64,000 nucleotides of DNA from a virus. Where the stretch lies: the IMG/VR virus record IMGVR_UViG_3300033997_000406, positions 20,432 to 84,431 of that record; one strand, 5' to 3'. Below, one piece after another: positions 1,252 through 38,397 of the stretch. Made by a program: the position numbers and the translations under genes. Numbering within the stretch: position 1 is the stretch's first letter; every line of letters starts with the position of its first letter. Under the pieces are notes generated by a model, which was not told the DNA's origin, searched no databases, and saw nothing but the letters and a program-made list of their open reading frames with translations.

Positions 1252-1318
1252 TTGATTTAATAAAAAGCAATGGTAATATTCCATAAATAATCTATTTATC
1301 TTCGTTTTTTTATGGAAT
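1252..1318 (+). promoter_or_regulatory. parA promoter with flanking operator arms
   Basis: A -35 box TTGATT (1252-1257), a 16-bp spacer and a -10 box TAATAT (1274-1279) form a good sigma-70 promoter. Two 10-bp arms, ATTCCATAAA (1278-1287) and TTTATGGAAT (1309-1318), are inverted with centres 31 bp apart, covering the start of transcription. This is the expected layout for the self-repressing operator of a P1-type parA (inference). Confidence 0.65.
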
Positions 1319-1358
1319 GATAGATTTATCAATGAAACAACTTAAGCGGAGCAACGAA

Positions 1359-2549
1359 ATGTCGGGCACTTCACCACAAAAAACTCTAAATCAAATATCC
1401 AACATCGCTCAGCGGCTAAGAGCGGTCATTAAACTAAACAAAGACCACGCACTGAGCCCGGACAGCGAAAGCGGAAAACTGGTAAGGCATTACAATCAGG
1501 CTGAGGCTATAAAAGCCACTGGCGCCCACGCTAAGAACATTGGCCCTTTGTGCGCTCAACTTGGCATTGATACACAGGACGGCAACCGCTGGCGTATCAC
1601 ATTAAAAGACGTTCAGGCATTGCGGGAGTCGCTGGGCTATTTGCCATTTGTTAGAGAAAAGAATCAGAAGCTGCAGATAATTGCAGTGAGTAGCCTTAAA
1701 GGCGGCGCAACAAAAACAACCATAGCGACCACACTGGCTGTTGGTTTGGCAACTGAGTGCAAAACACGGTACCGCGTTGGATTTATGGACCTAGACCCGC
1801 AATCAACAGCAACCAACCGGATCAAGCCAAATACTGACGAGACAATTATTAGTGCCGGCGACCTGCTGAGCGGGCAAGTGCAGCTGGATGAAGGCGAAAC
1901 CTTTGAACAGGCCTGTAAAGCTTCATTCTATCCAACAAACATACCGAACCTTCGGATCCTGCCAGCCAAAGAAAGCGACAGGGAATATGAAGTACTCGCA
2001 GAAGAGCGCAAGGCATCAGGCGGTTATATCGCCTACAAAGACCTACAGAGCATTATCGACGCCGTGGCTGATGACTTTGACATTATCATCATAGATACGG
2101 CCCCACAGTTCAGCACAGCAACGCTGGCAGCGCACTATTGCGCTAACAACCTGATTATTCCTATCCGCCCCTCTGAGGATGACCGGGACGCATCCAGCAA
2201 GTACGTCGACTTCTTAGAGCGCATGTATCACCTACTTGCGGGTATGGGACATGGCGGCTGGGATAACCTCTCTATTCTGCTCAGTGCCATTCGCAGCACC
2301 AGCAACGCACACAAACAAATGGTAAAAGAAATTCGCTCAGCCATTGGTCAGGACTGTTACGCCGTAGAAATACCTGAAAGCGAGGCTGTACTGACGTGCG
2401 CCAAGCAGTACTGCACGGTGTTTGATATGTCAGCCAGCGAGTATGTGAACCTTGGCAGCCGCAACACCATCAAAACCGCACAGACGGAATTCGGCCACTT
2501 CGTGGATGAAGTGGAAGCTCAAATTAAACGCTCTTGGGGTATAAAATGA
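1359..2549 (+). CDS. parA: ParA partition ATPase (P1 type Ia)
   Basis: This is a Walker-type partition ATPase of about 396 residues, close to P1 ParA. A deviant Walker A KGGATKTT lies about 115 residues in, followed by FMDLDPQ and IIIIDTAPQ strands. The first 100 residues carry the helix-turn-helix-containing extension used by type Ia ParA proteins to repress their own operon. The frame opens at 1317, but ATG 1359 is preferred because CGGAG lies 7 bases before it. ParA positions plasmid copies with ParB. The next gene overlaps its stop codon. Confidence 0.9.
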   Translation: MSGTSPQKTLNQISNIAQRLRAVIKLNKDHALSPDSESGKLVRHYNQAEAIKATGAHAKNIGPLCAQLGIDTQDGNRWRITLKDVQALRESLGYLPFVREKNQKLQIIAVSSLKGGATKTTIATTLAVGLATECKTRYRVGFMDLDPQSTATNRIKPNTDETIISAGDLLSGQVQLDEGETFEQACKASFYPTNIPNLRILPAKESDREYEVLAEERKASGGYIAYKDLQSIIDAVADDFDIIIIDTAPQFSTATLAAHYCANNLIIPIRPSEDDRDASSKYVDFLERMYHLLAGMGHGGWDNLSILLSAIRSTSNAHKQMVKEIRSAIGQDCYAVEIPESEAVLTCAKQYCTVFDMSASEYVNLGSRNTIKTAQTEFGHFVDEVEAQIKRSWGIK

Positions 2550-3082
2550 GTTCAACCCTATTTGTCTTGCGTGATAGTCGAGGCGACTGCGGCGGTAACG
2601 CTATGTTTTGGCCTACAGGTGGCGGCTATACCACTGACCTGAATAAAGCAGCTCATTACACAAAAGAACAGGCTGAGCGCCAACACAAAACCCGCCCCAC
2701 TGACATACCTCTACCTTTGGAGGCGCTGCAGAAGCTCACACGCATTACTGTAGACCATCAGTATCTACCGGACGAACACAACAACCACTCGCCTGATGCT
2801 GAGTATGTGATCCAGCACTGCAGAATGTGGGACGGCAACGACATCTACTTTCAGAACGATACCAGCGCCAGCAATGGCGATGACGTAAAAACAACAAACC
2901 TTACCAACGCAACCCGATACAGCAAAACCGAAGCCATTAAGCGAGCAGCAACGTTTAACAATGCTCAGATATGGCCATTACAGGATTTGGTTGCGATAGG
3001 CAGACAATCAGTGTCTGCGAAGCGAATAGACACAGCGGCAATGGCTGCACTGTCTGGCATTACAATTTTAGAGGCGGAATAA
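2546..3082 (+). CDS. Hypothetical protein inserted between parA and parB
   Basis: The ATG overlaps the parA stop (ATGA), so the gene is coupled to parA. The 178-residue product seems to be two diverged copies of one module of about 60 residues: TTDLNKAAHYTKEQAERQ in the first half matches TTNLTNATRYSKTEAIKR in the second, each followed by a hydrophobic PL..L segment. The function is unknown. Its position in the par operon suggests a maintenance role, but that is inference. Confidence 0.7.
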   Translation: MSSTLFVLRDSRGDCGGNAMFWPTGGGYTTDLNKAAHYTKEQAERQHKTRPTDIPLPLEALQKLTRITVDHQYLPDEHNNHSPDAEYVIQHCRMWDGNDIYFQNDTSASNGDDVKTTNLTNATRYSKTEAIKRAATFNNAQIWPLQDLVAIGRQSVSAKRIDTAAMAALSGITILEAE

Positions 3083-3084
3083 CA

Positions 3085-4080
3085 ATGGCAACGGCACCTG
3101 TACGCAAGAAACTTGAACTACGCGGCATCAGCGCAGACGCTATGGAAACAGCTCGGGCAAATTTCCAATCTATGGCGGCAGTGATAGAGATTCCTATCAG
3201 AGGCGGCAAAGTCGCTACATTCACTCTGGTTGTGGTACCAAGCGATGATATTGAATCAAAGACCTATGTAGCCGGTGAAAACGGTCGTAATCAAAAGCTA
3301 CTGAACAAAGTCTCTGTATCTGACATATCACCCACAATTAAAGCAAGCGGTCAGCAGTTCCCCGCCTTTGGTCAGTGGGACAACGATTTAATCAAAGTGA
3401 TTGACGGTTCACGCAGACGTTTTACGTGCAAAGCGTATAGCCAGCCCTATTACATTTACGTCACCAGTGACCCGATTGAGCGCGCTGACGTTCGCTATAT
3501 CAGCCAAGTGGCAAACATCAGTAAAGGCTTATCCCTGTATGAGAAAGGCTCTACCTTTGCGGCTTTACTTGATTATGGTACCTATGCCGACAATAAGAGC
3601 CTGGCAGAAGGTGAAGGCGAGCACGAAAGCACGGTATCTATTGCTATATCGTCCTTTAGAAACCTTCCAGTGTCTGTTGCTGAACGCATACCAAGCATAA
3701 GCGACATAGGCCGCTCTCTAATGAAAGAACTGATTGACCTTAGTTCTGACACCCGGTTAAGCGTAGAGCAGCGTACAGGCCTTATTGATACGGTCCTAAC
3801 TGATGAATTTAGTTTAGACCAACTAATTGCCGAATCAGGTTCAGAGGATCCAACCGTTTTAAATAACCTCTTTATCAAAAAGTACAAGGCTGCACACGCT
3901 GAGCTGCTTCCAAAAGCCAAGGAAAAAACACCAGCCCCTATTTTGGCTAGCAAAGGGAACACTCAGGCCGTTATCGCCAAGTCATCTAAACGAGGCTTTA
4001 CGGTTCAGATCAACTGCACTGACGCAAAGGTACGGGCTGCTATTGAGGCCGCCATACAGAAAGCGATTGAGGGTAAGTAA
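3085..4080 (+). CDS. parB: ParB partition DNA-binding protein
   Basis: A 331-residue protein follows in the parA operon, the size of P1 ParB. The central part has the KIDG/KVIDGSRRRFTC core seen in ParB (about residues 110-120), then a helical DNA-binding region with a SVAERIPSISDIGRSL stretch and a C-terminal dimerisation-like segment. It should bind parS and activate ParA. No spacer exists between parB and the next gene, so I cannot place parS. The start at 3085 has GAGGCGG ahead of it. Confidence 0.85.
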   Translation: MATAPVRKKLELRGISADAMETARANFQSMAAVIEIPIRGGKVATFTLVVVPSDDIESKTYVAGENGRNQKLLNKVSVSDISPTIKASGQQFPAFGQWDNDLIKVIDGSRRRFTCKAYSQPYYIYVTSDPIERADVRYISQVANISKGLSLYEKGSTFAALLDYGTYADNKSLAEGEGEHESTVSIAISSFRNLPVSVAERIPSISDIGRSLMKELIDLSSDTRLSVEQRTGLIDTVLTDEFSLDQLIAESGSEDPTVLNNLFIKKYKAAHAELLPKAKEKTPAPILASKGNTQAVIAKSSKRGFTVQINCTDAKVRAAIEAAIQKAIEGK

Positions 4081-9709: not shown

Positions 9710-9943
9710 CTAAATAGGAATATCGCTATCTGCATCGACAGCAGGCGGTGCCGCTACCCATTTAAGCAGTGGGTATCTGCCATCAAGGTAGAAACCAGCG
9801 CCAGCAGGTTCTTTTGGTATTTGTGGCATTACAGCAACACACGTTTCGCAGTAACAGCGATAGCCGCCCGCGTTATCCTCTGTCAGGGCGACATCGCACC
9901 CTGGACAGAACACGCCATCAAACATTGACTGTACGACCGCCAT
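9710..9943 (-). CDS. Small zinc-ribbon protein (77 aa)
   Basis: Two cysteine pairs, CPGC and CYCETC, are spaced as in a zinc ribbon near the N-terminus. The frame opens at 9988, but starts at 9943 or 9925 give a more natural overlap with the fusion gene upstream; no strong ribosome site decides between them. The C-terminal half is Pro/Ala-rich. The function is unknown. Confidence 0.55.
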
Positions 9944-11072
9944 TATGTGAAGGAGCTGAAACAACCCCGTCTTGCTCCATAGCCTCAACTATGCGAGCGG
10001 CACGGTTATAACCAATGCGGAACTTTCGCTGAATACTGGACACGCTGCAGCTGTTGCTTTCACGAATAAAAGTAACGGCTTGGCCATAAAGAGGATCAGA
10101 GGCGCCACCATCTAATTCAGATGATGCAGCTGGCTCCTTAGTTTTTTGCTCTTCGGACACTTCCGAACCGTCATACTGGTTGCCTACAAGCAAGGCATCA
10201 ATGGATGTACTGATAATGGAGTGCATCAGGATAAGGTCAGCATCTAAGCGGGCCTTAATATCATCCCAACCCAGCTCAGTATTTTGACCGACTAGCAGGT
10301 CGTGATATTTAAGACCGGTAATAACTCCGCTATCCCGGATAACAAAAGATATTTCACTTGGCTTACACAGCCCTATCAGGACCACTAACTTGTCCTGCAA
10401 ATGCGATTGAACTTCGTCAGACATGATCAGGTGATTATCAAAGCGCGCCTTACCGCCTTCCTCATCCGGGGCTTTAAACTCTACCTTGCTGCCCTGCTCA
10501 AAACCTGCAGGTAGGTTTTCGCCTTTAGTCCACAGAGCCAAGTTGCCGTTTAATTTATGGTTATCAAACAAGGGCAAAGCAGGCAAAGAGCCAATTGACT
10601 TACGCAACAACGCCACAATAGTCTCAGCAACACTATGGCTAGATGTGCCAATAGCGATAATGTGGCGCTTTTTATCGTAATAACCATGCACTACCCTAGA
10701 GCGACTAAACGCTCTTGGCATTAGGGTTTGACGCAATTCAGATTTAAGGGCTTCTTTTTCTTTTTTTGCTAAATGGCGGCCCTTTTCGCGCTCAAGGTCT
10801 TTTATTTTTGGCGCCAGCTCTTCGTTCAGCACGTCTGAGGGCAATATCTTTTCTTCTTTCTTGACCGCAAAAACAATTAAATCACTGGATTCGTAGGTGT
10901 AACCTTCAAACGACTCATGGAGCGGCGTAGTAAAACCCTGCTTCATCGACTCTTGTGAGGTGCAAGCGGTAAACTTAAACGCCGCTAAAGCCTCACCCAA
11001 TTGAACCGCACCAAGAGCCAGTGGCTCTGTCACACGATATAAAATCAAACTTTTAAAATGTACAAACGCCAT
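9918..11072 (-). CDS. rdgC-like: RdgC fused to an FtsK gamma domain (384 aa)
   Basis: Residues 1 to about 300 match recombination-associated protein Rdg[11 protein letters not shown] start, [35 protein letters not shown] and [15 protein letters not shown]. RdgC is a ring-shaped DNA-binding protein that restrains RecA. After a low-complexity linker, about residues 315-384 match the FtsK gamma winged-helix domain ([31 protein letters not shown]), which in FtsK reads KOPS and activates XerCD. No FtsK motor is present. Start ATG 11072 has GGAG 8 bases ahead; the upstream extension is rejected. A TTGACATTGTTAA palindrome lies just before the ribosome site. Confidence 0.85.
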
Positions 11073-11086
11073 AAACCCCACTCCAA

Positions 11087-11099
11087 TTAACAATGTCAA
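11087..11099. promoter_or_regulatory. TTRACANTGTYAA palindrome before the rdgC-ftsK fusion
   Basis: TTGACATTGTTAA (minus-strand reading) is a near-perfect 13-bp inverted repeat ending just upstream of the GGAG ribosome site of the fusion gene. The same sequence recurs at 14507-14519 and 24377-24389, so it is a probable operator. Confidence 0.6.
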
Positions 11100-11121
11100 T
11101 CCCAATTAAATCAACAACTTA

Positions 11122-11154
11122 ATAAAAACAAAAACGCCAGAAATTATCTGGCGT
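11122..11154 (-). terminator. Rho-independent terminator (minus strand)
   Basis: An 8-bp stem ACGCCAGA/TCTGGCGT with a 5-base loop is followed on the minus strand by TTTTGTTTTTATT. It ends the small operon 11165-12348 before the rdgC-ftsK fusion. Confidence 0.8.
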
Positions 11155-11164
11155 CACATACTAA

Positions 11165-11350
11165 TTAATCGTCGTATTCAAATTCTCTTTTACGCCGGAT
11201 CCGCTCCTGCACTTCTTCAATCCGGTTTCTGGTTTGCAATACATTGCGGCCGCCAGAAGTGGAGCGACTAGCTTCACGCAAGCTATGTATCTCACTGTCT
11301 CTTACAACAGCACCAGCAATGTAAGGCGGGTTAATCGGCGCTCTGCTCAT
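11165..11350 (-). CDS. Small basic hypothetical protein (61 aa)
   Basis: The last gene of the 11.2-12.3 kb minus operon overlaps the end of the gene before it by 20 bases. The C-terminal half is a charged helix (RIEEVQERIRRKREFEYDD). No family is recognised. Confidence 0.55.
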   Translation of the reverse strand: MSRAPINPPYIAGAVVRDSEIHSLREASRSTSGGRNVLQTRNRIEEVQERIRRKREFEYDD

Positions 11351-11672
11351 ATAAGGGATCTCCTAATTGTGGGGCGGCCTGAACCATTTTTGTGTAATCG
11401 AGTCGGCAATAGACTTCATCTTCCGGCTGAAACTTGTCACCAAGGGCAGCTTTAACCTGAGGCGCAGTAGCGTCGACTGGTACAACTCTGTGCGTTTCTG
11501 GCACCAATGCCAGCTTCGCGCTGAACGTATCCACCAGTGCAGCGGCAGAAATGCGCTGGATCATGCTGATGGCCGTAGGGGGCGTTACAGTCCTGTCGGT
11601 TGCAACGTTTAAAATCATCGCCATGGCTGCTTTTAGTGAGTCATGTCGTTTTTGTAGGTTTTCGCTTTCCAT
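11331..11672 (-). CDS. Hypothetical protein (113 aa)
   Basis: This is a soluble protein with a helical N-terminal half (HDSLKAAMAMILNVA, AISMIQRISAAALVDTF). It is in the same operon as the RHH-like protein and is followed by an overlapping small basic gene. No motif points to a function. Confidence 0.55.
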   Translation of the reverse strand: MESENLQKRHDSLKAAMAMILNVATDRTVTPPTAISMIQRISAAALVDTFSAKLALVPETHRVVPVDATAPQVKAALGDKFQPEDEVYCRLDYTKMVQAAPQLGDPLYEQSAD

Positions 11673-12813: not shown

Positions 12814-13650
12814 ATGGACGAGAATTTTACGATCCGGCACAGTGCTGCCCTTATTTCAGCTATTGAGCTGATGATGTCTACCAAAGTCATAAAGTCAGGT
12901 TTAGGAAAAACGATGCAGGCAATAGCTGCATTTTGGAACCCAAGCGGCAATATCTACCCTTCACAATCCACGCTGGCCAGCATGACCGGCATACACCGCA
13001 GAACCATTATTACCCACATTAAAACTTTGACCGGAATGGCAGTGGTTGAAACCACCACTAGACCGGGGCGCTATTACAACGGCGAGAAAGTGGCCAGCAC
13101 ACTGATGTATTCATTCAACACGGAAAAGCTGGGCGAACTATTCAGAAAGGCTAAGGCGAAACTCAAAGCGCAAGCTATTGCCACGGCCAGAAAGGCCAGA
13201 AAAGATCACTTCAAAGCACTGCAAAATGATCACACTAACAGAGCTAAAGCTCAGGCCGATAAGATCACTGTCAGCCAGGCGCTGGCAGACTGGTTTAAAT
13301 CTCTTTGTCAAAAGGCTTTCAACGCAGAAGTGCGCCACAAAGAAAAGCTGGTGCAGCAACAGGCCTACAAAAGCGGCATAGAGCGCAATAGGATAGCCAG
13401 AGGCGAATTATTTAGCCGCGCTGAGCGCAAGCGAAGGGCTGAGGAAGCTAAGCGAGTGCAACCAGAGCGCGAGAATGCACAGCAGCTGCATGAACGCATA
13501 GTTACCCTTAGCAAGGCTGCCCTTATCAACAAATTTTCGCCTGGCGCATTTACAGACGCCATGTACTACGAACTGATGAACATATCGAAGCAAGGGCAGT
13601 TACTCGACATCGCTACAAGAATGGCACTGAGCGCGTATAAAGCCGCTTAA
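12814..13650 (+). CDS. rep: Plasmid replication initiator with winged helix
   Basis: Residues 25-90 form a winged-helix domain of the replication-initiator type: FWNPSGNIYPSQSTLASMTG followed by IHRRTIITHIKTLTGMAVVE. The middle (about 105-210) is very basic and helical, and the last 50 residues are a compact helical tail. The gene contains GATCAC iterons and is followed by a second iteron block, as in O-type initiators that bind inside their own gene. The sequence differs from P1 RepA. The start at 12814 follows TATACT directly, with only a weak ribosome site. The assignment as Rep rests on domain and context. Confidence 0.75.
   Translation: MDENFTIRHSAALISAIELMMSTKVIKSGLGKTMQAIAAFWNPSGNIYPSQSTLASMTGIHRRTIITHIKTLTGMAVVETTTRPGRYYNGEKVASTLMYSFNTEKLGELFRKAKAKLKAQAIATARKARKDHFKALQNDHTNRAKAQADKITVSQALADWFKSLCQKAFNAEVRHKEKLVQQQAYKSGIERNRIARGELFSRAERKRRAEEAKRVQPERENAQQLHERIVTLSKAALINKFSPGAFTDAMYYELMNISKQGQLLDIATRMALSAYKAA
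13204..13274 (+). repeat. Iteron block A inside rep
   Basis: GATCAC occurs at 13204, 13228 and 13263. The part from 13228 to 13274 (47 bp) matches 13677-13723 at 42 of 47 positions. It is a candidate initiator-binding array inside the coding sequence. Confidence 0.7.
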
Positions 13651-14874: not shown

Positions 14875-15806
14875 TACTTCCATGTAAGGCCAGTTGTCAT
14901 TTGCACCAAATCATCTATTTGAGAATTGGACGAACGCTGCTGAACAGATACCTTGACAGCTTCATGCGGGAACTGGCTTAAGTCTGTTTTTTGTATAGAG
15001 CTAAGCAGCTGCACAATATCCCCTATATCTTCCGGCCCCTGGCGCACGAATGCCGCTTTTTGGTCATCGGTCAGCATAAACGGCAGCTTATCCAAGGCAG
15101 CTGATAACCGTGACTTTCTGGACTCTTCTTGCTCTAAAAGGCTGGATACAATTAAATCAGTTAGAGCCGCTGCATCACTTTCCGGCTGAGCAGTGAAGCG
15201 GTTTAGCATTTTCCCTGCATCTTCTTCACCAAACTCAGACTTAAGGCTTGATAGCAGCTGATCCTGCTGCTCAGACACTGAAGAAAGCAGCATGTTCTGA
15301 CGATGAATTGGGATGAAATTAGGCTGTCTAACAAAATCGAAACCTTTGAATGAGGTAGCTAAACTGGCTTCGCCTCGCTCTGTTCCATCGCGGCCGGACA
15401 TAGCCCAGCTGAAACCACCAAAACCTTGCTTGTAAAGGTCATAAGCTTTACGGCCCAGCTCTGTGTCCGCAAACTCTTGCTCATGGGTTACATCACCGTT
15501 ATCAGCCACTTCAACAGATAAGGTTCTGATAATGGGCTCTACGTTTACTACAACAGCCTTACCGTCTACCTGTATAACTTCAAACTCTGTTGGGTCAATC
15601 TTGCCTGTTAACTGGCGGATACGATGGCCCCAATAGCCAACGGCTTCACCTAACCGGATCCGCTCCAATGTTTCACCGGCAGAAAACACCTTTTTAAGGG
15701 CCGCTAACTGGAAGCTCTGCGGTGCCGGGTTAAATTTGCGGCCATCACGCAAAATATTGAATGTCTCTTTTGCCCGCATTGGGCTTGCGCCTGTACTATT
15801 GCTCAT
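14874..15806 (-). CDS. Putative prohead maturation protease (310 aa)
   Basis: This gene follows the portal gene with an 11-base overlap, the usual place for a head protease. Residues 90-150 contain THEQEFADTELGRKAYDLYK then GFGGFSWAMSGRDG, which resembles the catalytic serine region of phage prohead proteases. The C-terminal third is helical and could be scaffold-like. The catalytic His/Ser pair was not confirmed, so a non-enzymatic head protein is the alternative. Confidence 0.5.
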   Translation of the reverse strand: MSNSTGASPMRAKETFNILRDGRKFNPAPQSFQLAALKKVFSAGETLERIRLGEAVGYWGHRIRQLTGKIDPTEFEVIQVDGKAVVVNVEPIIRTLSVEVADNGDVTHEQEFADTELGRKAYDLYKQGFGGFSWAMSGRDGTERGEASLATSFKGFDFVRQPNFIPIHRQNMLLSSVSEQQDQLLSSLKSEFGEEDAGKMLNRFTAQPESDAAALTDLIVSSLLEQEESRKSRLSAALDKLPFMLTDDQKAAFVRQGPEDIGDIVQLLSSIQKTDLSQFPHEAVKVSVQQRSSNSQIDDLVQMTTGLTWK

Positions 15807-17493
15807 TGCTCACTCCTAATAACTTTTTCAAAACCTTTTGCATCAACATTTGTTCAACTTCATCACCATGCAATTGCATAAGCTGCTCTGCTGCCTGCTC
15901 TAATTTCATGGATGACATAACCATATCGCCGCCTTCACCGCCCTCATCAGCACCAGCCGCTTTAATGTCAGCAAGAACCTGCTTCATTTGTTCGTCATCT
16001 AAATCAAGGGCACCCTCTAACAGGGCTTTGGTAAGCAGTGGTGATCGCTGAGTTGCACCGTTAGCAATCGCATCAACAAGCGTTGCAATGACAGTGGCAT
16101 AGTTCGCCCGGCTTTCGCGGGCCTCGTTTTCTGATTCAGCTATAGAGGTGTTTAAGCTGTTGAATTGCACAGACCATGGCTTGGCCATGTCGGCCGGCAC
16201 CACCTTTTTGTATTTGTACCAAAAGTGCAAATCAAGGGCGCGATTTATCATTGTGCTTGCAGCCTGGCGAATCCATGTAGCTCGCCTTGCCGCTTGAATG
16301 CTTTGCTGAAAGAAGCCGCCTTCACCTAAACCGCCCGACAGCAAATCAGCCCAACCCATCATTGTCACATCAATACCTAAAGAGGCCGTCAAACGCTTCA
16401 GATGAAACATGATGTCCTCTATGTCAGAAATGTTCGGATCAGTTCTGTTCGTGTCGATAGTCATCTGGCCTTTCCCACCATGGACAGGGATAAGACTGTT
16501 ATTAATAAGCGGTCGAAGGCTTTTTAAAACGGCTCTGCGCTCCTGATTTTCTTGGTTCGCTTTCAGCTGACTTGCTATGTAGTTGGAATATTCTGCTGCC
16601 GCTATTGGGTCTAAGCCTTCCATAGGAACCAACATCATGCGATCAATGCGACTGGCGTTTTTACGGCTGCCACGCATTGAATCAATTGCTTCCACCAGGT
16701 CGCGCCATGGACCGAAGCTGTTTTCTAAGAAGCTATGGCCATAGTCCTGTGTCTCTACAATCATTTGATCGTAGACATCATCAAACAGCGAATAGATGGC
16801 AGAGCCGAAGTGCTCTGGTTCGCGTGTGGGGTCGGCAACGTGATACGGCACTTTCATTGATATTAATGACCAGGGCGGAGCTAACTGAACTGTGCCCGTA
16901 TGCTGCTTATCCCGTAAATACTGGTTTGTGTAGCCCGCAAGCAATCCGCTGCGCGTGTACTCCCGCACAAACTGAGGCAACGTGTAGAAAGAGCTTTCAA
17001 AGTGGGTGATACCCACGCCGTCTTTTGCATAAGGCCTGATGTAGTTCACGCCGTAGGTGCACATGGTTTTAGCCCAGTTCACGATATTGGCATTAATCAG
17101 CTTCATTACACCGGCATTAAGCTCTGCTATCAGTTCGTCATGTTCTGGAGCTGTCGATTTAAGCTCAATGATAATTCCGGTTTTTGAGTCGGCCGATAGC
17201 GCATGTGTTAAGTGCATATCTATTGCATCGCTAACAATAGAGTCAGTGGCCATCAGTGAAAACGTTGCATACCGGGCTGATCTGTCTTTGCTAAGCCCTA
17301 AATTGCTGAGGCTGTCCGATTCGTCAATATCATCTGTTTCACCACCCAAGCTGCCATACACACCGCTTAGCGGGGAGTCTTGCACGAAAACATTATTGTG
17401 CTGGCTATCGGTTTCTTTGTAGGCAGGAAATAGCGTGGAATAAAAAGATTTTAAGCCATCAATTATTGGGTTTTTGCTCTGTTTTTCACTCAT
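15796..17493 (-). CDS. Portal protein (565 aa)
   Basis: The size and pattern fit a myophage portal: FGSAIYSLFDDVYDQMI near residue 230, SRIDRMMLVPMEGLDP near 285, a Gln-rich helix (QLKANQENQERRAVLKSL) and the segment VTMMGWADLLSGGLGEGG followed by RRATWIRQAA. The portal is the DNA entry ring of the capsid and docks the tail. It is the first gene of a minus-strand operon with the head protease, and a TAACAGTTA palindrome lies 15 bases upstream. Confidence 0.8.
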   Translation of the reverse strand: MSEKQSKNPIIDGLKSFYSTLFPAYKETDSQHNNVFVQDSPLSGVYGSLGGETDDIDESDSLSNLGLSKDRSARYATFSLMATDSIVSDAIDMHLTHALSADSKTGIIIELKSTAPEHDELIAELNAGVMKLINANIVNWAKTMCTYGVNYIRPYAKDGVGITHFESSFYTLPQFVREYTRSGLLAGYTNQYLRDKQHTGTVQLAPPWSLISMKVPYHVADPTREPEHFGSAIYSLFDDVYDQMIVETQDYGHSFLENSFGPWRDLVEAIDSMRGSRKNASRIDRMMLVPMEGLDPIAAAEYSNYIASQLKANQENQERRAVLKSLRPLINNSLIPVHGGKGQMTIDTNRTDPNISDIEDIMFHLKRLTASLGIDVTMMGWADLLSGGLGEGGFFQQSIQAARRATWIRQAASTMINRALDLHFWYKYKKVVPADMAKPWSVQFNSLNTSIAESENEARESRANYATVIATLVDAIANGATQRSPLLTKALLEGALDLDDEQMKQVLADIKAAGADEGGEGGDMVMSSMKLEQAAEQLMQLHGDEVEQMLMQKVLKKLLGVSNEQ

Positions 17494-17577: not shown

Positions 17578-20500
17578 ATGGATCAGACCAAATTTGCCAT
17601 ACAAGCGGGGCGGGCAACGTCTGTACGGCAACTAATTAGCGTGTTCGACAGCTTTTTACCGCAATCAGCACCAGCAGCGGAAGAAGAGACAGAAGGTGGA
17701 ACGAGGGCGCAAGCGAGGCGAAAATCTAACGCTGCAGCTCTGGCCATACTGGCAAGGAATCCGGATCCAAGCTTATTAACGGCAGGCGAAAAGCAAGCAC
17801 TGTGGGCCTACTCCGGCCGAGGCGGCATAGGTGATAGCACCAACGAGTACTACACGCCACCTGTATTGGCTAAAGGTGTTTGGAGTCACTTTCAGGCATA
17901 TGGCTTTGAGAATGGCAACGTACTGGAGCCCAGCTGTGCCACAGGCATTTTTAACAACCTAAAGCCGGACAATGTAATTATCACCGGCGCAGAAGTGGAT
18001 CCCACGTCCAGCAGAATTAACCAGTTACTGCACCCGACAGACACTATTCACAACATGCCTTTTGAAGCTCTGGCCAAAGCCACGCCCGACAGTACTTTTG
18101 ACGGCGTTATAGGTAATGCACCATTCGGTAGGCGATTGAATACCTTTGCTGCACAGGATGATGTATATCGCGACTTGAAAACAAATGAGCAGTATTTTAT
18201 TGCCCGCTCCATCGATAAAGTGAAGCCTGGCCACTTGGTATCACTAATCGTCAACACATCAATAGTCAGCACAAAAGGCCTAGCCAAGTTCAGGGCCATG
18301 ATCAGCCGCAAAGCTGAGTTTTTAGGAGCGCACCGCTTCCCATCAGGCACTTTTAGCGCTAACGGCTCTGATTCGGTTGTGACTGATCTTGTTGTGTTTC
18401 GCAAGCACCCGGATGAACTCGCCGAAAAAATGCTGGATATGACAGATGAACAGCTCCAGGAAGCAAATGTGCTTTGGGACACGTTTATCAGTGGCCGCTG
18501 GTTTGACGCGGAAGGCCGCAAATTTATACATGGCGAAGTAATTAGCGGGGCGGGGCAGTGGGGTAGCGACCTTGTTGTTATTCCTGGAATGCCTAAAGCA
18601 GAGCAAGGGCAGCGCCTATCCCCGCATCAGCGCATAGAAAAAGCAAACGTCATCAACGCTCACAACGAAACAATAGCCAAAGCGCTCAGCAAGCGGTTTG
18701 AAAGCCGGATTGATTGGGATCTAATAGGCGCGGCTGAGCCTGTCATAGCAAATTATGTCGACGGCGACCGCAGATTAATAAACGGCCGCTGGTTTGAAAT
18801 GACCGATGGCCAGTGGCTGCAAGTGGCGCTTACTGATGCCAAGGGCTCGCTGGACGCAACGATGTACGGTTTTACCTCTGTATCAGCAATTAAAGACGCT
18901 ATGACTGATTCACGTTCAGCCATAGACATACCGTTTAATCAACTGTCGAACATTTACCAAAACTTGCGCGACACATTGCCTTTTGATGTTGTCAGCGCTT
19001 TCCGCCTGGCTGACCAAGCACCAGCAGAACACAGAGAGCGTTTAGTTAAAGGCGCACTTATTGGCGCCCGCCTCCGGGCTTTTAATGAACGCCAACTTAT
19101 TGATCCTGACTACGACAGCGAGCTGATTGAATTACGTGAAATGTGCGCTGCAATGCACCGCAAGTTTGGCGACAGCAATAAGGTTCGCGGCATTAAAAAG
19201 CTAACAGGTGAAAGTGCAGCCTCTTACAACTTCTTTAAGTCAGCTCTGGACAAAGACGGCAACTACAGAGATTTGCTATCAGGAAACGTGGAACGCCGCG
19301 CTATAGCTCAATACAGCAACGACAATCCGAGCCACGTCATAGAGCAGCTGACCGCTACTGTTGTCAGCTCAATCACTCTGGACGAATTCAGGCAGTCTTA
19401 CACAGGACCAGATGCAGAGCTGAGTGACGCTGAGTTTCTGGATAAGCTGGCACTTTATGAAAACATAGCCATTGACCAGTTTGGCAATCTGCAGCTGATG
19501 GACCGTGCTATAGCTGGTGACGTTGCAAAAAACAATTCTCGCCTAATGTCCGCTTTGGCCAATGAAACCCTGAGTGACGTGGTTAAGTTCAATATAGCCC
19601 GCCAGCTGGACATGATTAAATCACGGCGCAAGTGGACAGATGCTAGCCGTATAAGCTTTGGCTTGCGTGACCAATTTATACCGCGTCAGACAGTGCTGGA
19701 GTTCCTGCAGCAAGAGGGCTTTTCTCATCTTAAATACGTTGGTATTGAGCAAAAATCTGTAGAAGAGGCTGGCGAGGAAAGTTTGGTTGAAGTGGATATG
19801 CCAGAAGAGCAAAACGGCATTTTCACCGGCTATTACACTCAGGGCGGCAAACAGAAAACCCGTAAAGACGATGACGGCGGCACCTTTGGCGCTCAACTTG
19901 AAAAATACCTAAACGGCTTAGGTGTTCGCAGTGCTGATGCCAAGGAGAACAGCAAGTACCGTGACCGGATCCGTGGTATGGAAAAGCGTTTTCAAATCTG
20001 GCTTCGTCAGCATGATAGCGCTGACGATATTGTTGCAGCCTACAACGATATGTTTAACGGCCATGTGGAGTTTGAACACTCAGACGCGCCCATTAACTTT
20101 GAAGGTGTTTCTGGTGAAGTACTGCATAAGGGTTATCAAAACAGTGCAATCCGCCGTCTATCAGAAGATGGCAGGGGTATTCTCGGTTTTGGTACCGGCC
20201 TTGGCAAAACATTTGCAGCGTTAGGTGCTGCTAAATATGGTGTTCAGACAGGTCGTAATCGTAAAGTTTGTATCGTCATGCCAAAAGCAGTAAACGAAAA
20301 CTGGATAAACGAAACCGTGCTGTTTTATGGTGGCGGCAACTTGTCCAAGGTCTTATTTGTCGGTTATGAGCTGGAGCAAAAAGACGGCGCATTAAGCACA
20401 AGGCCTGTGCTTGATGGCAAAGGTCAGCAAAAGCTGAATCCTTTGACTGGAAACGCTCTGACCACGCCAGTACTGCGAGAGCTGTCTGCAGCCGAAATCA

Positions 20501-23500
20501 CAAACAACATGCACTTAATCCCGCACTCCGATTTTAACTTGGTGCTGATGACTAAAGAGCAGTATGCCGCTATCCCGATGAGACAAGAGACACTGGACGA
20601 AAACGCCAGAGATCACTTGTGGGCGCACCAGGATAAAGGCCACGTTGCGATGATGGCCAAAGGCTACAAAGAGCAAGCCAAAAAAGAGGCGGTGCTTAAT
20701 AAGTTCAGTGATGACGGCACAGAAAAGACGCATGAATACCCTTACTTTGAGGATATGAACTTTGACTTAGTGATCGCCGATGAAGGCCATAACTACCGCA
20801 ACAGTCAGAACCCCGGACAAGTCGGCCGGAACCTTGTCTATGTGTCTGCAGGTCAAGAGGCTCAAATCGCTGCTGATATGCGTCAAAAGCTGCACTACCT
20901 GAAACGCAAGTACAATGGTCGCGGCGCCATTCTCTTAACTGCCACCCCCACACCTAACAGCCCGCTGGACATTTACAACATGCTTAGTCATGTAATGACA
21001 GTCAGCGAGTGGCAAAAGCTCGGCATTGCGAACCAGGATGACTTTATTAAGCACTTTGGCGAAGTGTCTGAGGTCATGGTTAGTCGGATCAGTGGTGGCG
21101 TTGCATTTGTCGAAGGCCTCACTGGCTTTAAAAATCTTGACGCGCTGCGCTCACTGTTCCACCGCTGGATCAACAAGAAATCTGTTGAGGATGTTAAAGA
21201 GGACGTGAAAGTCCCAACAGTTGAAGATAAGGTGTCCGCCGTTCCGATGTCCGGCGATCAGAAGGCCGCTTATGAGCTACTGCGATACCGTGCAAAGCTT
21301 ATCAGCGATAAAGCTAAAGGCGTCGACAGCACAATAAATGCTTCACCACAGGAGCTGCTGCTAATTGAGCGCATAGAGTCGATGTATCCGGACGACCAGC
21401 TCTTTAGCATTATTCGTGACATGGACCGCGTTTGTTCTGATATGGAGCTTTTTAACGGGCGAATGACGTTTATTTTCCCGAAAGAAAAAGCACCAGCAGT
21501 ACGCCAGTTAGTAAAGTCTCTGCCTACTGAAAAAGTACGGATGGTAAACGACAAGAGCGAAAGCGGCGAAACTATCAAGGTGAAGCAAGTACTGCAGCTT
21601 AATGCAGTAGTCAACGAAAACCAGAACGGACATTTTACTGTCCAAATCAATGAATCCTTTGAAAGTGATCTGCTGGGGCTCCTGAAGCAGTCCGGCCTGA
21701 CACAGCAAGATATTACTCACCCATTAAGCCCTAAATACGCAAACCTGATTGAGAACTTAAAAGAGTCGATCAAGGATGGCGGCAAACAACTGGTATTTAG
21801 TGAAGAAAAATCACAGCACAAGAAGCTGCACCGGATAATTTGCCACCACTTGCAGCTAAGACCAGATCAAGTAGGTATTTTGAATGGAGACACTGTAACC
21901 GGCAAAGACAGCGTAACGAATGATGAGAATGCTAAGGCAACCAAAGCAAAAGCCGCACTTGATGATGAAGCCATTGAGCAGGAAGGTCTTGAGGGCATTG
22001 CAGCCAAATACAACTCTGGTCAGTTCAAAGTGCTGATCCTGAATAAAAAGGGAGAAGTGGGCGTAAACCTTCACATAGGTACCAGCGACATACACCACTT
22101 AACTTTGCCATGGACAAGAGACGCATTAGTTCAGCGAAACGGCCGAGGCGCCCGAGTGGGTGCGCCACAAGATAAAGTAAACAGTCATGTGTATGTTTGT
22201 AAGGATTCGTTTGACGTATTCCGCAAAGACACAATAGACCGCAAAGGAAGTTGGCAGGATGAACTGTTTTTAGGTGAAGCTATCCGCGTTGATAATGGTG
22301 ACGCAGAGCCTGACTTTGATATTGGCGCAATTATGTCGACCAACATTGAAGAGTACAAAGCCCAGGTGGCAGAGCAGAAGCGCAAAGCCGATGAAGCCCT
22401 TAAGCAGGAAAAGCGTACAGAAGCCTCAATTTCACTTCACAACCTGATCCGAACATCAAAGCTGATGCGCCGTGATATTGCGCCTGAGGAAGAAAAGGAG
22501 GCAAACCTTGCCGCCTTTGTTGCTGAGCGCCAGGCTACATTAAACAGCAAAACGGCAGCCCTTAACGAAGCCCGCGATAACTGGCAAGCAGCTAACAATG
22601 CCGGGCAAGACCAAACCACAGTCAATTATCTGCGAACCAAATACAAAGCAGCTAATGCCGCATCTGAAACGGCCCTTAAGGATTTACGAGCTGCGCAAAG
22701 TTCGCTCGGCAAACAGCGGGCTGTTATCGCTTCCATTGAGCGAGCCAAAACACAGGCAAAACTTTTGCGGGGCAATGTAGAAACGGCGATTGCTGCAGGG
22801 CTCTTATCCATCAACCTGGATGACTTAGAGCACGTCAGCAGTATGGCTGTTGCTGAAGGCCGAGTTTACAAAATTGGTCAGTACTATGAGTTTTTACTGA
22901 ATGGTGCCAACAGTACTCCTGCGATTGTAAAAATTGAAGAGTTCACTCCGGATCAAAGCCAGTGCAGCGCATTAGTGGTCTTAAATGCTGGCGGGAGAAC
23001 AAATACTGTTCGCACTATTCCGCTTAAGCAATTGGTAAATCAAACCCACTTTACTGAAACGGAAATTCAGTTACGCCAACAGCTTGCAACCGCTACATTT
23101 GACAACATAGCCCAGCTGGTCGGTCGGGACGAATTCTATTCACTGATAGAGCAGGGCGCCATTAACCCAAGCATGTACACGTACTATATTGAAGATGGCA
23201 AATTTAAAGGTGTTTCAGGCATCAACATAGTTCCTAAGGAAAGCCGTAATTCCATCGTTTATCCTGATCCAACATCAAGCAAGTTACGTGAAATGGTTAT
23301 CCAGTCAGGTCTTGAATCACTGAAAAGTAGCTATGGTTCAACATCGTTACACCCACTATGGAAAGCTGTACTTGGCGAAAATTACCTTGAAATTATAGGA
23401 AATGCGGACCCTTCACGCGAAACAGACGAACAGATAGCCGCCTGGCTACAAAATGCGGCTGATAAAACACCAGAATCATCATGGCCATATAGGAAAGTAC

Positions 23501-24354
23501 TTGATGCGGCAAAATCGGAAGAGTCCAGCGCCAAGAAATCCTATATCGATAGCATTTTCAGAACATATTTGAGGCGTTTAATACCCGGCACTACACAAGG
23601 TACGCGATACATATCCGCTATCACGGAATACTGCAGAACGTTAGAGGCTCAGTTTGACGTGGAGTTTGAAGAGTATCAGCAGAGAGTGGCAGACTTAAAT
23701 AGCAAACTCACCACTGACGCGCTTAATAGCCCTGAAGGTGCCATACGCGAGCGCTTAGCATCTTTGACGCCAGGCCTATGGAGATTTGTGACTTTTTACG
23801 ATAAAGCATCTGTTGATAAAATATTAGATGGTTCAAAGTATGAAAGCCTGAATCAGATAATGGCAGACTTAGTTAATGTTGGTTACACAGGCCATGGCTC
23901 AGTTAACACCACAAATTATGCGATGCCTAACAAAGAGTTGCTGAGACTCACAGCAAGACTTTGGGATGAAGCTAAATACAGCCGTGAAAAACTGACTAAG
24001 TTTATTGATAGCGGAGTACCGCAAGCTGAAGAGGCTACAGCCACAACTGCAGGCGTTTCAGTTGAACAGATGGCAGATATACCATTTGCTCAAGCCCTGC
24101 TGGATAAGCACGGCATACAAGCTAAACGGAATACCAAGCCTGTAAAAGGTAAGGGCGCTTATGCCTGGATAGGGTTGTTTGACCCGAAGGGCTATGGCCA
24201 CGTTTTACAAAAGAGTCTGGCGGGGAAAGGAAATCCAAACAAAGAGCGCTTAGGGGCCGTATGGTATTCTAAAGCCGGTGACGAAATGGAAAACTATTGG
24301 TTGATACCTGCTGACGTGGACCCGTCCATTGTCGCTGATGTTTTTGACCTGTAA
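17578..24354 (+). CDS. darB: DarB-like antirestriction methyltransferase-helicase (2258 aa)
   Basis: The length is almost that of P1 DarB. The N-terminal part is an N6-adenine methyltransferase-like domain (PSCATGIFNN near 123; VIGNAPFG near 178). The middle is a superfamily 2 helicase: Walker A GFGTGLGKT near 870, VIADEGHNY near 1065, LLTATPTPNSP near 1120, and the second helicase core ending in VQRNGRGARVG near 1515. A long helical C-terminus follows. P1 DarB is packaged and protects incoming DNA in cis against type I restriction. In motif IV, NAPF replaces the usual NPPF, so methylation activity is uncertain. Confidence 0.9.
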   Translation: MDQTKFAIQAGRATSVRQLISVFDSFLPQSAPAAEEETEGGTRAQARRKSNAAALAILARNPDPSLLTAGEKQALWAYSGRGGIGDSTNEYYTPPVLAKGVWSHFQAYGFENGNVLEPSCATGIFNNLKPDNVIITGAEVDPTSSRINQLLHPTDTIHNMPFEALAKATPDSTFDGVIGNAPFGRRLNTFAAQDDVYRDLKTNEQYFIARSIDKVKPGHLVSLIVNTSIVSTKGLAKFRAMISRKAEFLGAHRFPSGTFSANGSDSVVTDLVVFRKHPDELAEKMLDMTDEQLQEANVLWDTFISGRWFDAEGRKFIHGEVISGAGQWGSDLVVIPGMPKAEQGQRLSPHQRIEKANVINAHNETIAKALSKRFESRIDWDLIGAAEPVIANYVDGDRRLINGRWFEMTDGQWLQVALTDAKGSLDATMYGFTSVSAIKDAMTDSRSAIDIPFNQLSNIYQNLRDTLPFDVVSAFRLADQAPAEHRERLVKGALIGARLRAFNERQLIDPDYDSELIELREMCAAMHRKFGDSNKVRGIKKLTGESAASYNFFKSALDKDGNYRDLLSGNVERRAIAQYSNDNPSHVIEQLTATVVSSITLDEFRQSYTGPDAELSDAEFLDKLALYENIAIDQFGNLQLMDRAIAGDVAKNNSRLMSALANETLSDVVKFNIARQLDMIKSRRKWTDASRISFGLRDQFIPRQTVLEFLQQEGFSHLKYVGIEQKSVEEAGEESLVEVDMPEEQNGIFTGYYTQGGKQKTRKDDDGGTFGAQLEKYLNGLGVRSADAKENSKYRDRIRGMEKRFQIWLRQHDSADDIVAAYNDMFNGHVEFEHSDAPINFEGVSGEVLHKGYQNSAIRRLSEDGRGILGFGTGLGKTFAALGAAKYGVQTGRNRKVCIVMPKAVNENWINETVLFYGGGNLSKVLFVGYELEQKDGALSTRPVLDGKGQQKLNPLTGNALTTPVLRELSAAEITNNMHLIPHSDFNLVLMTKEQYAAIPMRQETLDENARDHLWAHQDKGHVAMMAKGYKEQAKKEAVLNKFSDDGTEKTHEYPYFEDMNFDLVIADEGHNYRNSQNPGQVGRNLVYVSAGQEAQIAADMRQKLHYLKRKYNGRGAILLTATPTPNSPLDIYNMLSHVMTVSEWQKLGIANQDDFIKHFGEVSEVMVSRISGGVAFVEGLTGFKNLDALRSLFHRWINKKSVEDVKEDVKVPTVEDKVSAVPMSGDQKAAYELLRYRAKLISDKAKGVDSTINASPQELLLIERIESMYPDDQLFSIIRDMDRVCSDMELFNGRMTFIFPKEKAPAVRQLVKSLPTEKVRMVNDKSESGETIKVKQVLQLNAVVNENQNGHFTVQINESFESDLLGLLKQSGLTQQDITHPLSPKYANLIENLKESIKDGGKQLVFSEEKSQHKKLHRIICHHLQLRPDQVGILNGDTVTGKDSVTNDENAKATKAKAALDDEAIEQEGLEGIAAKYNSGQFKVLILNKKGEVGVNLHIGTSDIHHLTLPWTRDALVQRNGRGARVGAPQDKVNSHVYVCKDSFDVFRKDTIDRKGSWQDELFLGEAIRVDNGDAEPDFDIGAIMSTNIEEYKAQVAEQKRKADEALKQEKRTEASISLHNLIRTSKLMRRDIAPEEEKEANLAAFVAERQATLNSKTAALNEARDNWQAANNAGQDQTTVNYLRTKYKAANAASETALKDLRAAQSSLGKQRAVIASIERAKTQAKLLRGNVETAIAAGLLSINLDDLEHVSSMAVAEGRVYKIGQYYEFLLNGANSTPAIVKIEEFTPDQSQCSALVVLNAGGRTNTVRTIPLKQLVNQTHFTETEIQLRQQLATATFDNIAQLVGRDEFYSLIEQGAINPSMYTYYIEDGKFKGVSGINIVPKESRNSIVYPDPTSSKLREMVIQSGLESLKSSYGSTSLHPLWKAVLGENYLEIIGNADPSRETDEQIAAWLQNAADKTPESSWPYRKVLDAAKSEESSAKKSYIDSIFRTYLRRLIPGTTQGTRYISAITEYCRTLEAQFDVEFEEYQQRVADLNSKLTTDALNSPEGAIRERLASLTPGLWRFVTFYDKASVDKILDGSKYESLNQIMADLVNVGYTGHGSVNTTNYAMPNKELLRLTARLWDEAKYSREKLTKFIDSGVPQAEEATATTAGVSVEQMADIPFAQALLDKHGIQAKRNTKPVKGKGAYAWIGLFDPKGYGHVLQKSLAGKGNPNKERLGAVWYSKAGDEMENYWLIPADVDPSIVADVFDL

Positions 24355-28209: not shown

Positions 28210-28220
28210 GGATGGATCGA

Positions 28221-29282
28221 ATGAGCTTTCAATTTACAGCAACAAAGGGTACTCAGGGCGGCAAAATATATTATGTCGCCAACGTTACTTTTGGCGCTCT
28301 GTCGCGGGTTCTGGCTATTGACTCAGGTGAAGTGATGGAGCGTTCACAGCGCGAAATTGAAAAACCAAGAGCCACAAAAATTCAATCGTATCTGAACGAA
28401 AACAGGGAAAGCTATGTGCTGCCAGCGCTAACAGGGATTGTTGACGATCCTAATTTGCTTTTTGAGGAGTTTGGTCATGCCGGTTCTGGTGTGGGGCGAC
28501 TTAGCTTGTCGCTGGACGCGGAGATAAAATTGTTTGACGGACAGCATAGAGCGACTGGCATCCGGCAAGTCCTTAAGCAAAACAACTATATGAAGAACGA
28601 TCAGATTGCTTTGCAATTATTTGTCGGTATGGATTTGCTGCAGCGTCAGCAGGCCTTTTCAGACATAAACAGCAATGCTAAGCCAGTCAGCAAGAGTTTG
28701 AATATGGCATATAGCCACCGTGATACAAATGTCCAGCCAATAGTCACTGCGATTGGTCATATATACGGATGGGCTGGCCGCATTGATTATGAAAACAATA
28801 CAGTACCAAAAGACAGTGAAAACATATTCTCACTGCGTAACATCGTACAGGCCTGCAGAATCCATGAAGGTTGCAGCAAGAATCAAATGCTGGCTCGCAA
28901 TGCTTATTTGACTATGAGTAGGTACTGGAATGACATTGGTACTACTGTAGGCTGGTTCTTTTTTGAAGATGGTGCAGTTAAACAAATACCACGTTCAGAA
29001 GGTATGGCCGCAGGGAATATATTTTTTACCGTTGCAGGCCTGATGGTGTTGGCTCGGGTAGGACACAAGGTGGGGCAGTTGCCAGGCTACGACCCTGATC
29101 GAATGAAATTGCTTAATACCGTTTTGCGTCAGGTAGGCCAGCATCGTGACTCCCCGTTTTGGAGGGGTAACATTGTCAAAGAGAACGGCAATATGGATGC
29201 GTCTACAAGAGCACAAATTACGGCCGCAGATGCGATTATGGAACTGTTCTCTAAAGCCCTAAGTCGTTCTCTGAATACTTAA
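28221..29282 (+). CDS. DGQHR-domain protein related to DndB
   Basis: The hallmark FDGQHRATGI lies near residue 115, with a preceding ERSQREIEKPRATKIQSYL segment and a following LFVGMDLLQRQQAFSDIN, as in DndB-like DGQHR proteins. DndB is the regulator in DNA phosphorothioation loci, but no dndA, C, D or E is present here. ATG 28221 has AAGGA 8 bases ahead; ATG 28212 is the alternative. It may affect host DNA modification or be a domesticated phage protein. Confidence 0.8.
   Translation: MSFQFTATKGTQGGKIYYVANVTFGALSRVLAIDSGEVMERSQREIEKPRATKIQSYLNENRESYVLPALTGIVDDPNLLFEEFGHAGSGVGRLSLSLDAEIKLFDGQHRATGIRQVLKQNNYMKNDQIALQLFVGMDLLQRQQAFSDINSNAKPVSKSLNMAYSHRDTNVQPIVTAIGHIYGWAGRIDYENNTVPKDSENIFSLRNIVQACRIHEGCSKNQMLARNAYLTMSRYWNDIGTTVGWFFFEDGAVKQIPRSEGMAAGNIFFTVAGLMVLARVGHKVGQLPGYDPDRMKLLNTVLRQVGQHRDSPFWRGNIVKENGNMDASTRAQITAADAIMELFSKALSRSLNT

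Positions 29283-35562: not shown

Positions 35563-35563
<1 letters not shown>
34688..35563 (-). CDS. Polyvalent-type protein with pyrophosphatase-like domain (291 aa)
   Basis: After a helical N-terminus, residues 80-215 read AGNYKKGRVTFAGIDITIEN, DPIDVFLGEVL, VFVIDQINPDTLQFDEHKVM and AYLANYDKGW. This is the InPase-like domain found in the large polyvalent proteins that phages and plasmids inject with their DNA. The catalytic activity is unproven. It is the last gene of the Dar-like operon and overlaps the stop of the 944-residue gene. Confidence 0.65.

Positions 35564-38397
<2,834 letters not shown>

Follow-up and report, generated by a model that had tools for sequence, protein, structure and literature searches.

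A single gene joins RdgC to the gamma domain of FtsK

We found that a phage-plasmid encodes, in one open reading frame, an RdgC protein joined to the gamma domain of the DNA translocase FtsK, and that this pairing recurs in phages, prophages and plasmids. The gene lies in the window analyzed here, a stretch of 64,000 nucleotides from an 84,431-bp IMG/VR record (IMGVR_UViG_3300033997_000406); a 127-bp terminal repeat in this record indicates that the element is probably circular, with a length of 84.3 kb. The rdgC-ftsK-gamma gene (9918-11072, minus strand) runs uninterrupted from its ATG (11072-11070) to a stop codon ending at 9918 and encodes 384 residues. A ribosome-binding site, GGAG (11081-11084, minus strand), was read from the sequence 8 nt 5' of the ATG. 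Pfam detected two domains in the protein and no further one, both above their cut-offs: RdgC at residues 5-294 (10191-11060, minus strand; PF04381, 238 bits for a cut-off of 25, E 1e-70, profile positions 2-291 of 298) and the FtsK gamma winged helix at residues 325-383 (9924-10100, minus strand; PF09397, 84 bits for a cut-off of 30.6, E 5e-24). PHROGs and NCBIfam concurred. In a PDB sequence search, the first part of the protein matched E. coli RdgC (2owl, 1e-50) and also 2owy, and the last 70 residues matched the FtsK gamma structures 2j5p, 2j5o, 2ve8 and 5dcf (1e-17 to 1e-18).

To visualize the arrangement of the two domains, we used an AlphaFold model of the fusion monomer, built with 37 window and related sequences as input. 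The model (mean pLDDT 87.7) consists of two confident domains joined by a disordered leash at residues 299-323 (10104-10178, minus strand; pLDDT below 50). Searched with Foldseek, its RdgC part matched 2owl and 2owy with TM-scores of 0.88-0.90 by target, and its gamma part matched the KOPS-bound FtsK gamma structure 2ve9 with an rmsd of 0.6-0.8 A and TM-scores of 0.91-0.94 by target. The first-pass annotation had described an RdgC-like body with a C-terminal FtsK gamma winged helix, had named a profile search for FtsK gamma beforehand as a refuting test and had asked for an AlphaFold model; the profile search returned PF09397 at residues 325-383, the model agrees with solved RdgC and KOPS-bound FtsK gamma, and both domain calls were thus right at the level of profiles, PDB sequences and fold. 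The fold search with the model of residues 5-294 (mc64909b3abd2, 10191-11060) also returned the human kinetochore CCAN L subunit and yeast Iml3; the resemblance of Iml3 to RdgC had already been reported (cited in PMC11077077).

Compared with chromosomal RdgC (2owl from E. coli, 2owy from P. aeruginosa), the fusion is 39% identical over 297 aa to one chromosomal RdgC of a host, LMPRAFSR segment included, but it has the extra linker and gamma domain, and it scores under the NCBIfam RdgC equivalog cut-offs (best NF001462, 257 bits versus 330). Compared with FtsK, the gamma part shares about 55-58% identity over ~59 residues with 2j5p, 2ve8/2ve9 and 5dcf (rmsd 0.6-1.6 A) and has the same KOPS and XerD contact residues, but the fusion has neither motor domains nor a membrane part, and its gamma sits on a predicted dimeric RdgC ring without a translocase. 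The RecA-like motor domains of an FtsK/SpoIIIE translocase are missing: Pfam detects RdgC and gamma alone, and the FtsK profile NF007615 matches at the C-terminal end only, with 66 versus 1566 bits.

The gene context is that of a phage-plasmid. The window encodes a ParA-like partition ATPase (1317-2549, plus strand; phrog_164 1e-51, AAA_31 4e-21), a ParB-like partition protein (2971-4080, plus strand; phrog_1146 1e-45), a replication-initiator-like helix-turn-helix protein (12814-13650, plus strand; HTH_36 1e-8, phrog_391 6e-8) and a phage portal protein (15796-17493, minus strand; phrog_1497 5e-147). Tail genes are present, as are P1-like antirestriction genes for a DarB-type methyltransferase/helicase of 2258 aa (17578-24354, plus strand) and a DarA_N protein (35563-38397, minus strand). 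The element encodes its own tyrosine recombinase of 204 aa, located outside the window (record positions 10923-11537), and has one gamma domain, that of the RdgC fusion. It also encodes a protein of the DndB family, associated with DNA-sulfur modification (28212-29282, plus strand).

The fusion recurs in phages, prophages and plasmids

A tblastn search with the fusion protein matched 325 phage records, 154 of which covered at least 80% of the query, and 64 plasmids matched at the same coverage. An alignment search of IMG/VR contributed 80 more loci, and viral contigs searched with the single sequence P0001 gave no match. The fusion was found in more than 100 phage records and in plasmids, with 54 distinct fused sequences among the loci read; these loci include those of Vibrio, Pararheinheimera and Pseudomonas phages and of Pseudomonas, Vogesella and Dyella plasmids. 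With phmmer, gamma was found on 78 of the 91 RdgC reading frames of the loci collected to that point, a proportion that is no estimate of frequency because one of the two patterns used for searching was itself a gamma motif. Since the same single-ORF layout is present in independently sequenced phages and plasmids, the fusion is one gene rather than two, and a sequencing or assembly artefact is ruled out. Recurrence likewise rules out a unique oddity. The pairing had been presented as that of a phage-plasmid, with a search for it in other phage-plasmids suggested; it is indeed found in a phage-plasmid, but it is common to phages, prophages and plasmids.

We then looked at chromosomes. The sample comprised 185 genomes of the class to which the seed genome belongs; 60 of them contained RdgC, and a full-length fused match was found in the seed genome only, a Serratia that has the fused copy together with a normal unfused RdgC. 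In the same way, each of the hosts of fused prophages that were checked has a separate unfused RdgC. The single fused match among the 60 RdgC-bearing genomes indicates that the architecture belongs to mobile elements. Apparent chromosomal RdgC-gamma matches in Rheinheimera, Pseudidiomarina, Arsukibacterium and Glaciecola (L098-L100, L107) proved to be ordinary FtsK. Plasmid annotation often labels the fused proteins "DNA translocase FtsK". As for the literature, the first-pass annotation knew of no described protein with this pairing, and the open-access literature, to which our search was confined, contained no paper presenting RdgC and FtsK gamma together; a Salmonella plasmid survey joins RdgC and the term "phage-plasmid".

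Fused and unfused RdgCs are intermixed in the RdgC tree

To place the fused proteins among other RdgCs, the RdgC parts of 89 proteins less than 75% identical (54 fused, 35 unfused) were used for a maximum-likelihood tree, built by a quick search with SH-aLRT support. The tree implies 11 changes between the fused and unfused states, at least nine of them forced by well-supported branches, and unfused RdgCs are nested within fused clades. For instance, the unfused host copy of Serratia (L424) falls inside a fused clade with a support of 99, the unfused host RdgC L442 pairs with the fused L021 (support 100), and the unfused RdgC of viral contig L074 pairs with the fused L034 (support 97). The absence of a single clade of fused RdgCs makes it probable that the two domains were joined, or rejoined, on many occasions. 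The tree fits a repeated capture of host RdgC followed by re-attachment of gamma, and it fits an exchange of the RdgC part under a retained gamma domain; a single gain may also have been followed by several losses of gamma. In a tree of gamma by itself, the domain was too short to tell a single from a multiple origin from host FtsK.

KOPS and XerD contact residues are retained in the fused gamma domain

RdgC dimers are ring-shaped, have no sequence preference on DNA and lower RecA activity (PMC11077077). In FtsK, there are three gamma domains per KOPS, and the hexamer is loaded alongside (PMC5052618, PMC5357621). The reading that we tentatively prefer is that gamma serves RdgC as an address tag, by which binding to KOPS-like sites would deliver the RdgC ring and place its restraint on RecA. 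Each subunit of the predicted DNA-encircling dimer would bear a gamma domain on its flexible leash, gamma would bind double-stranded DNA at GGGNAGGG-like (KOPS) sites, and the two gammas of a dimer would bring the sequence-blind ring to defined, oriented places, in a way that resembles the loading of the FtsK hexamer beside KOPS. The RdgC thus placed would limit RecA there; the target sites may belong to the host chromosome, to the element or to both. We infer KOPS binding, ring loading and RecA restraint from the domains, the contact residues, the fold and the recurrence of the pairing.

We looked at the contact residues of gamma, which in the window protein lie in a segment at residues 348-366 (9975-10031, minus strand), as aligned to E. 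coli FtsK. In this alignment, Q348, R349, G354, N356, R360, E363 and E366 correspond to Q1288, R1289, G1294, N1296, R1300, E1303 and E1306 of E. coli FtsK, and the window protein has every KOPS/XerD contact residue, R352 and I353 included. In E. coli FtsK, N1296, R1300, E1303 and E1306 take part in KOPS reading (PMC2533119, PMC2680272), and Q1288, R1289, R1292-G1294 and N1296 contact XerD (PMC5052618), a contact made by the QR-G-N motif of gamma (PMC5052618; PMC5357621). The complete conservation of QR-G-N in the full fused set owes something to the search motif, and the same holds for the share of invariant residues located in gamma in a whole-protein alignment of 38 sequences (five of seven). 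Because some searches used a motif containing QR..IG.N, we recounted on the 18 fused proteins retrieved independently of it. QR-G-N was kept in 18 of 18, as was N1296 itself; E1303 and E1306 were each kept in 17 and R1300 in 15. R1300, which is tied to KOPS specificity, is replaced in some fused copies by W, H, S, A or Y. By these alignments, the KOPS and XerD surfaces of the fused gamma domain are both under constraint, and since the two overlap, conservation cannot tell the two roles apart.

This overlap leaves room for another reading, in which gamma is a XerD-binding patch that brings RdgC to XerCD, either activating XerCD for the element or blocking RecA at, or interfering with, host dif. 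The unbiased conservation of QR-G-N, slightly better than that of R1300, suits it, and XerC or XerD with gamma fused, or XerC with nine gamma residues, suffices to activate recombination (PMC5052618). The loss of R1300 in some copies and the equal conservation of the XerD surface are also points against KOPS addressing. However, E1303 and E1306, which serve KOPS reading only, are kept as well, E1303 being dispensable for XerCD-dif recombination (PMC2680272). Together with the dif survey below, this makes the XerD patch an unlikely explanation. With the domain calls right and the KOPS/XerD contact residues kept, gamma as the DNA address of RdgC stays our leading idea.

KOPS enrichment is weak and dif-like sites are absent from the carrier records

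We wanted to look at KOPS on the DNA of the carriers. The word counted was GGGNAGGG, with its expectation taken from a fourth-order Markov model and with bootstrap intervals. In 16 fusion carriers, GGGNAGGG was 1.6-fold over expectation (bootstrap interval 1.27-1.82), versus observed/expected ratios of 1.04 in six unfused-RdgC phages, which are few and close relatives, and of 1.01 in five phages that served as gamma-less controls. The element itself has six GGGNAGGG words versus 3.4 expected. These counts, 1.6-fold in fused carriers versus about 1.0 in the others, are suggestive of the element's own DNA as a KOPS target. The enrichment is nevertheless weak and not specific to KOPS: the other G-rich words GAGGGGGN and GGGAGGGN were enriched equally, and KOPS ranked fifth among 56 words of the same composition. 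Moreover, several carriers lack any GGGNAGGG, among them the complete phage genomes ST2-1pr and SHOU24. The suggestion of the first-pass annotation that gamma loads RdgC at oriented sites is favored by the kept contact residues, and the word counts are suggestive for it at most.

The scarcity or absence of KOPS in several carriers and the unspecific enrichment would suit a gamma domain acting as a generic tether to double-stranded DNA, which would raise the affinity of RdgC and of the other partners described below (YejK, GapR and clamps), KOPS reading being incidental or lost. The presence of gamma on many unrelated proteins, some without an obvious link to KOPS, goes the same way. Against it, the base-reading residues N1296, E1303 and E1306 are retained across strongly diverged proteins, and we give this reading a low probability.

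Concerning dif, no site with three or fewer mismatches was found in 55 carrier or related records, and on this ground the use of dif on the element was rejected. A looser scan of this element gave only matches with at least nine mismatches, none convincing. This result and the tyrosine recombinase encoded by the element speak against the XerD patch. They also weaken the earlier proposal that the fusion recruits XerCD for dimer resolution in place of Cre, as do the carriers beyond phage-plasmids.

Gamma domains are found on other partner proteins

Searching for gamma instead of RdgC, we found it joined to GapR, to YejK/NdpA and to a beta-clamp-like protein. GapR-gamma proteins are encoded by phages (L291, 3950-4642, and L298, 3443-4630; GapR matches of 2e-32 and 5e-32) and, with two gammas, by Rhodobacter phage RcKemmy (L197, 3198-4529). 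YejK/NdpA (NA37)-gamma proteins were found in a prophage (L281, 2951-4192, at the same place as L292, 2957-4201) and in the P. aeruginosa plasmid R716 (L361, 1897-3177), with YejK matches of 1e-94 and 1e-93. In L292, an unfused RdgC gene (1945-2946) directly precedes the YejK-gamma gene, and this RdgC groups with Pseudomonas phages and plasmids in a clade of mostly fused proteins, as if gamma had shifted from RdgC to the neighboring YejK.

Short proteins with a beta-clamp-like part and a C-terminal gamma were found in a Colwellia MAG (L101, 5278-6183) and in a viral contig (L461, 2180-3079); an unfused relative, 74% identical, is located at L201 (3989-4687). In L201 and L461, the gene comes after a DnaQ-like exonuclease gene. 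Since the AlphaFold model of the beta-clamp-like-gamma protein was too poor for use (pLDDT 41), the clamp identity rests on weak profiles, on PDB matches, nearly all of them to beta clamps, and on neighboring genes. Two further families carry gamma: phrog_6576, a large Pseudomonas family (phi297; L193, 3027-3995; L202-L248) encoded beside RecT and a RecF/Rad50-like ATPase, and phrog_13700 (L198, 2364-3239), which directly precedes the large terminase gene and has a weak small-terminase match. In these proteins gamma is C-terminal, central or N-terminal. We also noted a 201-aa gamma protein, with the annotation DNA translocase FtsK, encoded by the mobilizable 4.4-kb plasmid pSZECL_c (L362, 2890-3495).

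Beta clamps and the FtsK motor are ring-shaped around DNA. RdgC and GapR also encircle DNA as rings (PMC11077077, PMC6853979). The presence of gamma on GapR and on beta-clamp-like proteins therefore fits a role in addressing rings, and its presence on GapR, YejK and beta-clamp-like proteins makes a general module likelier than a device specific to RdgC and dif. The wider pattern is a lead, because some of the partners are not known rings. A broader, rather doubtful proposal is that gamma is a portable ring loader, welded repeatedly to RdgC, GapR, beta-clamp-like proteins and YejK, which would place sequence-blind proteins at oriented KOPS, so that the elements would read the ori-to-dif polarity of the host.

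The fusion might also compete with host FtsK, its occupancy of KOPS or XerD blunting FtsK loading or XerD activation and disturbing chromosome dimer resolution. Its surface is a near-copy of that of the host, 62% of 69 aligned columns being identical to the gamma of a bacterial FtsK, and a decoy needs neither KOPS nor dif on the element. However, an RdgC ring would be superfluous to a decoy, as would the repeated pairing with RdgC, YejK, GapR and clamps, and E. coli is only mildly affected when its FtsK can no longer read KOPS (PMC2680272); we consider such competition very improbable.

Discussion

A close phage-borne comparison is lambda RexA, which, like the fusion, has an RdgC-type DNA-binding dimer fold (PMC11077077), but which has no gamma domain, was crystallized as a closed dimer and has a role in exclusion. 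Other gamma-bearing proteins of mobile elements share the module and differ in the partner, which may be a DNA-coating, a DNA-encircling or a recombination-cassette protein.

The gamma domain of FtsK is the reading head of a translocase, and to our knowledge RdgC has no known means of choosing its place on DNA. A recurrent fusion confined to mobile elements, and echoed on other rings and nucleoid proteins, suggests that phages and plasmids have reused the KOPS/Xer address system of the host beyond DNA pumping, and the fusion offers a directly testable case of site-specific ring placement. These results also correct the records that name such proteins "DNA translocase FtsK". As a protein, the fusion is a new form of RdgC; should binding be demonstrated, the use of gamma with several partners would outweigh it as a finding.
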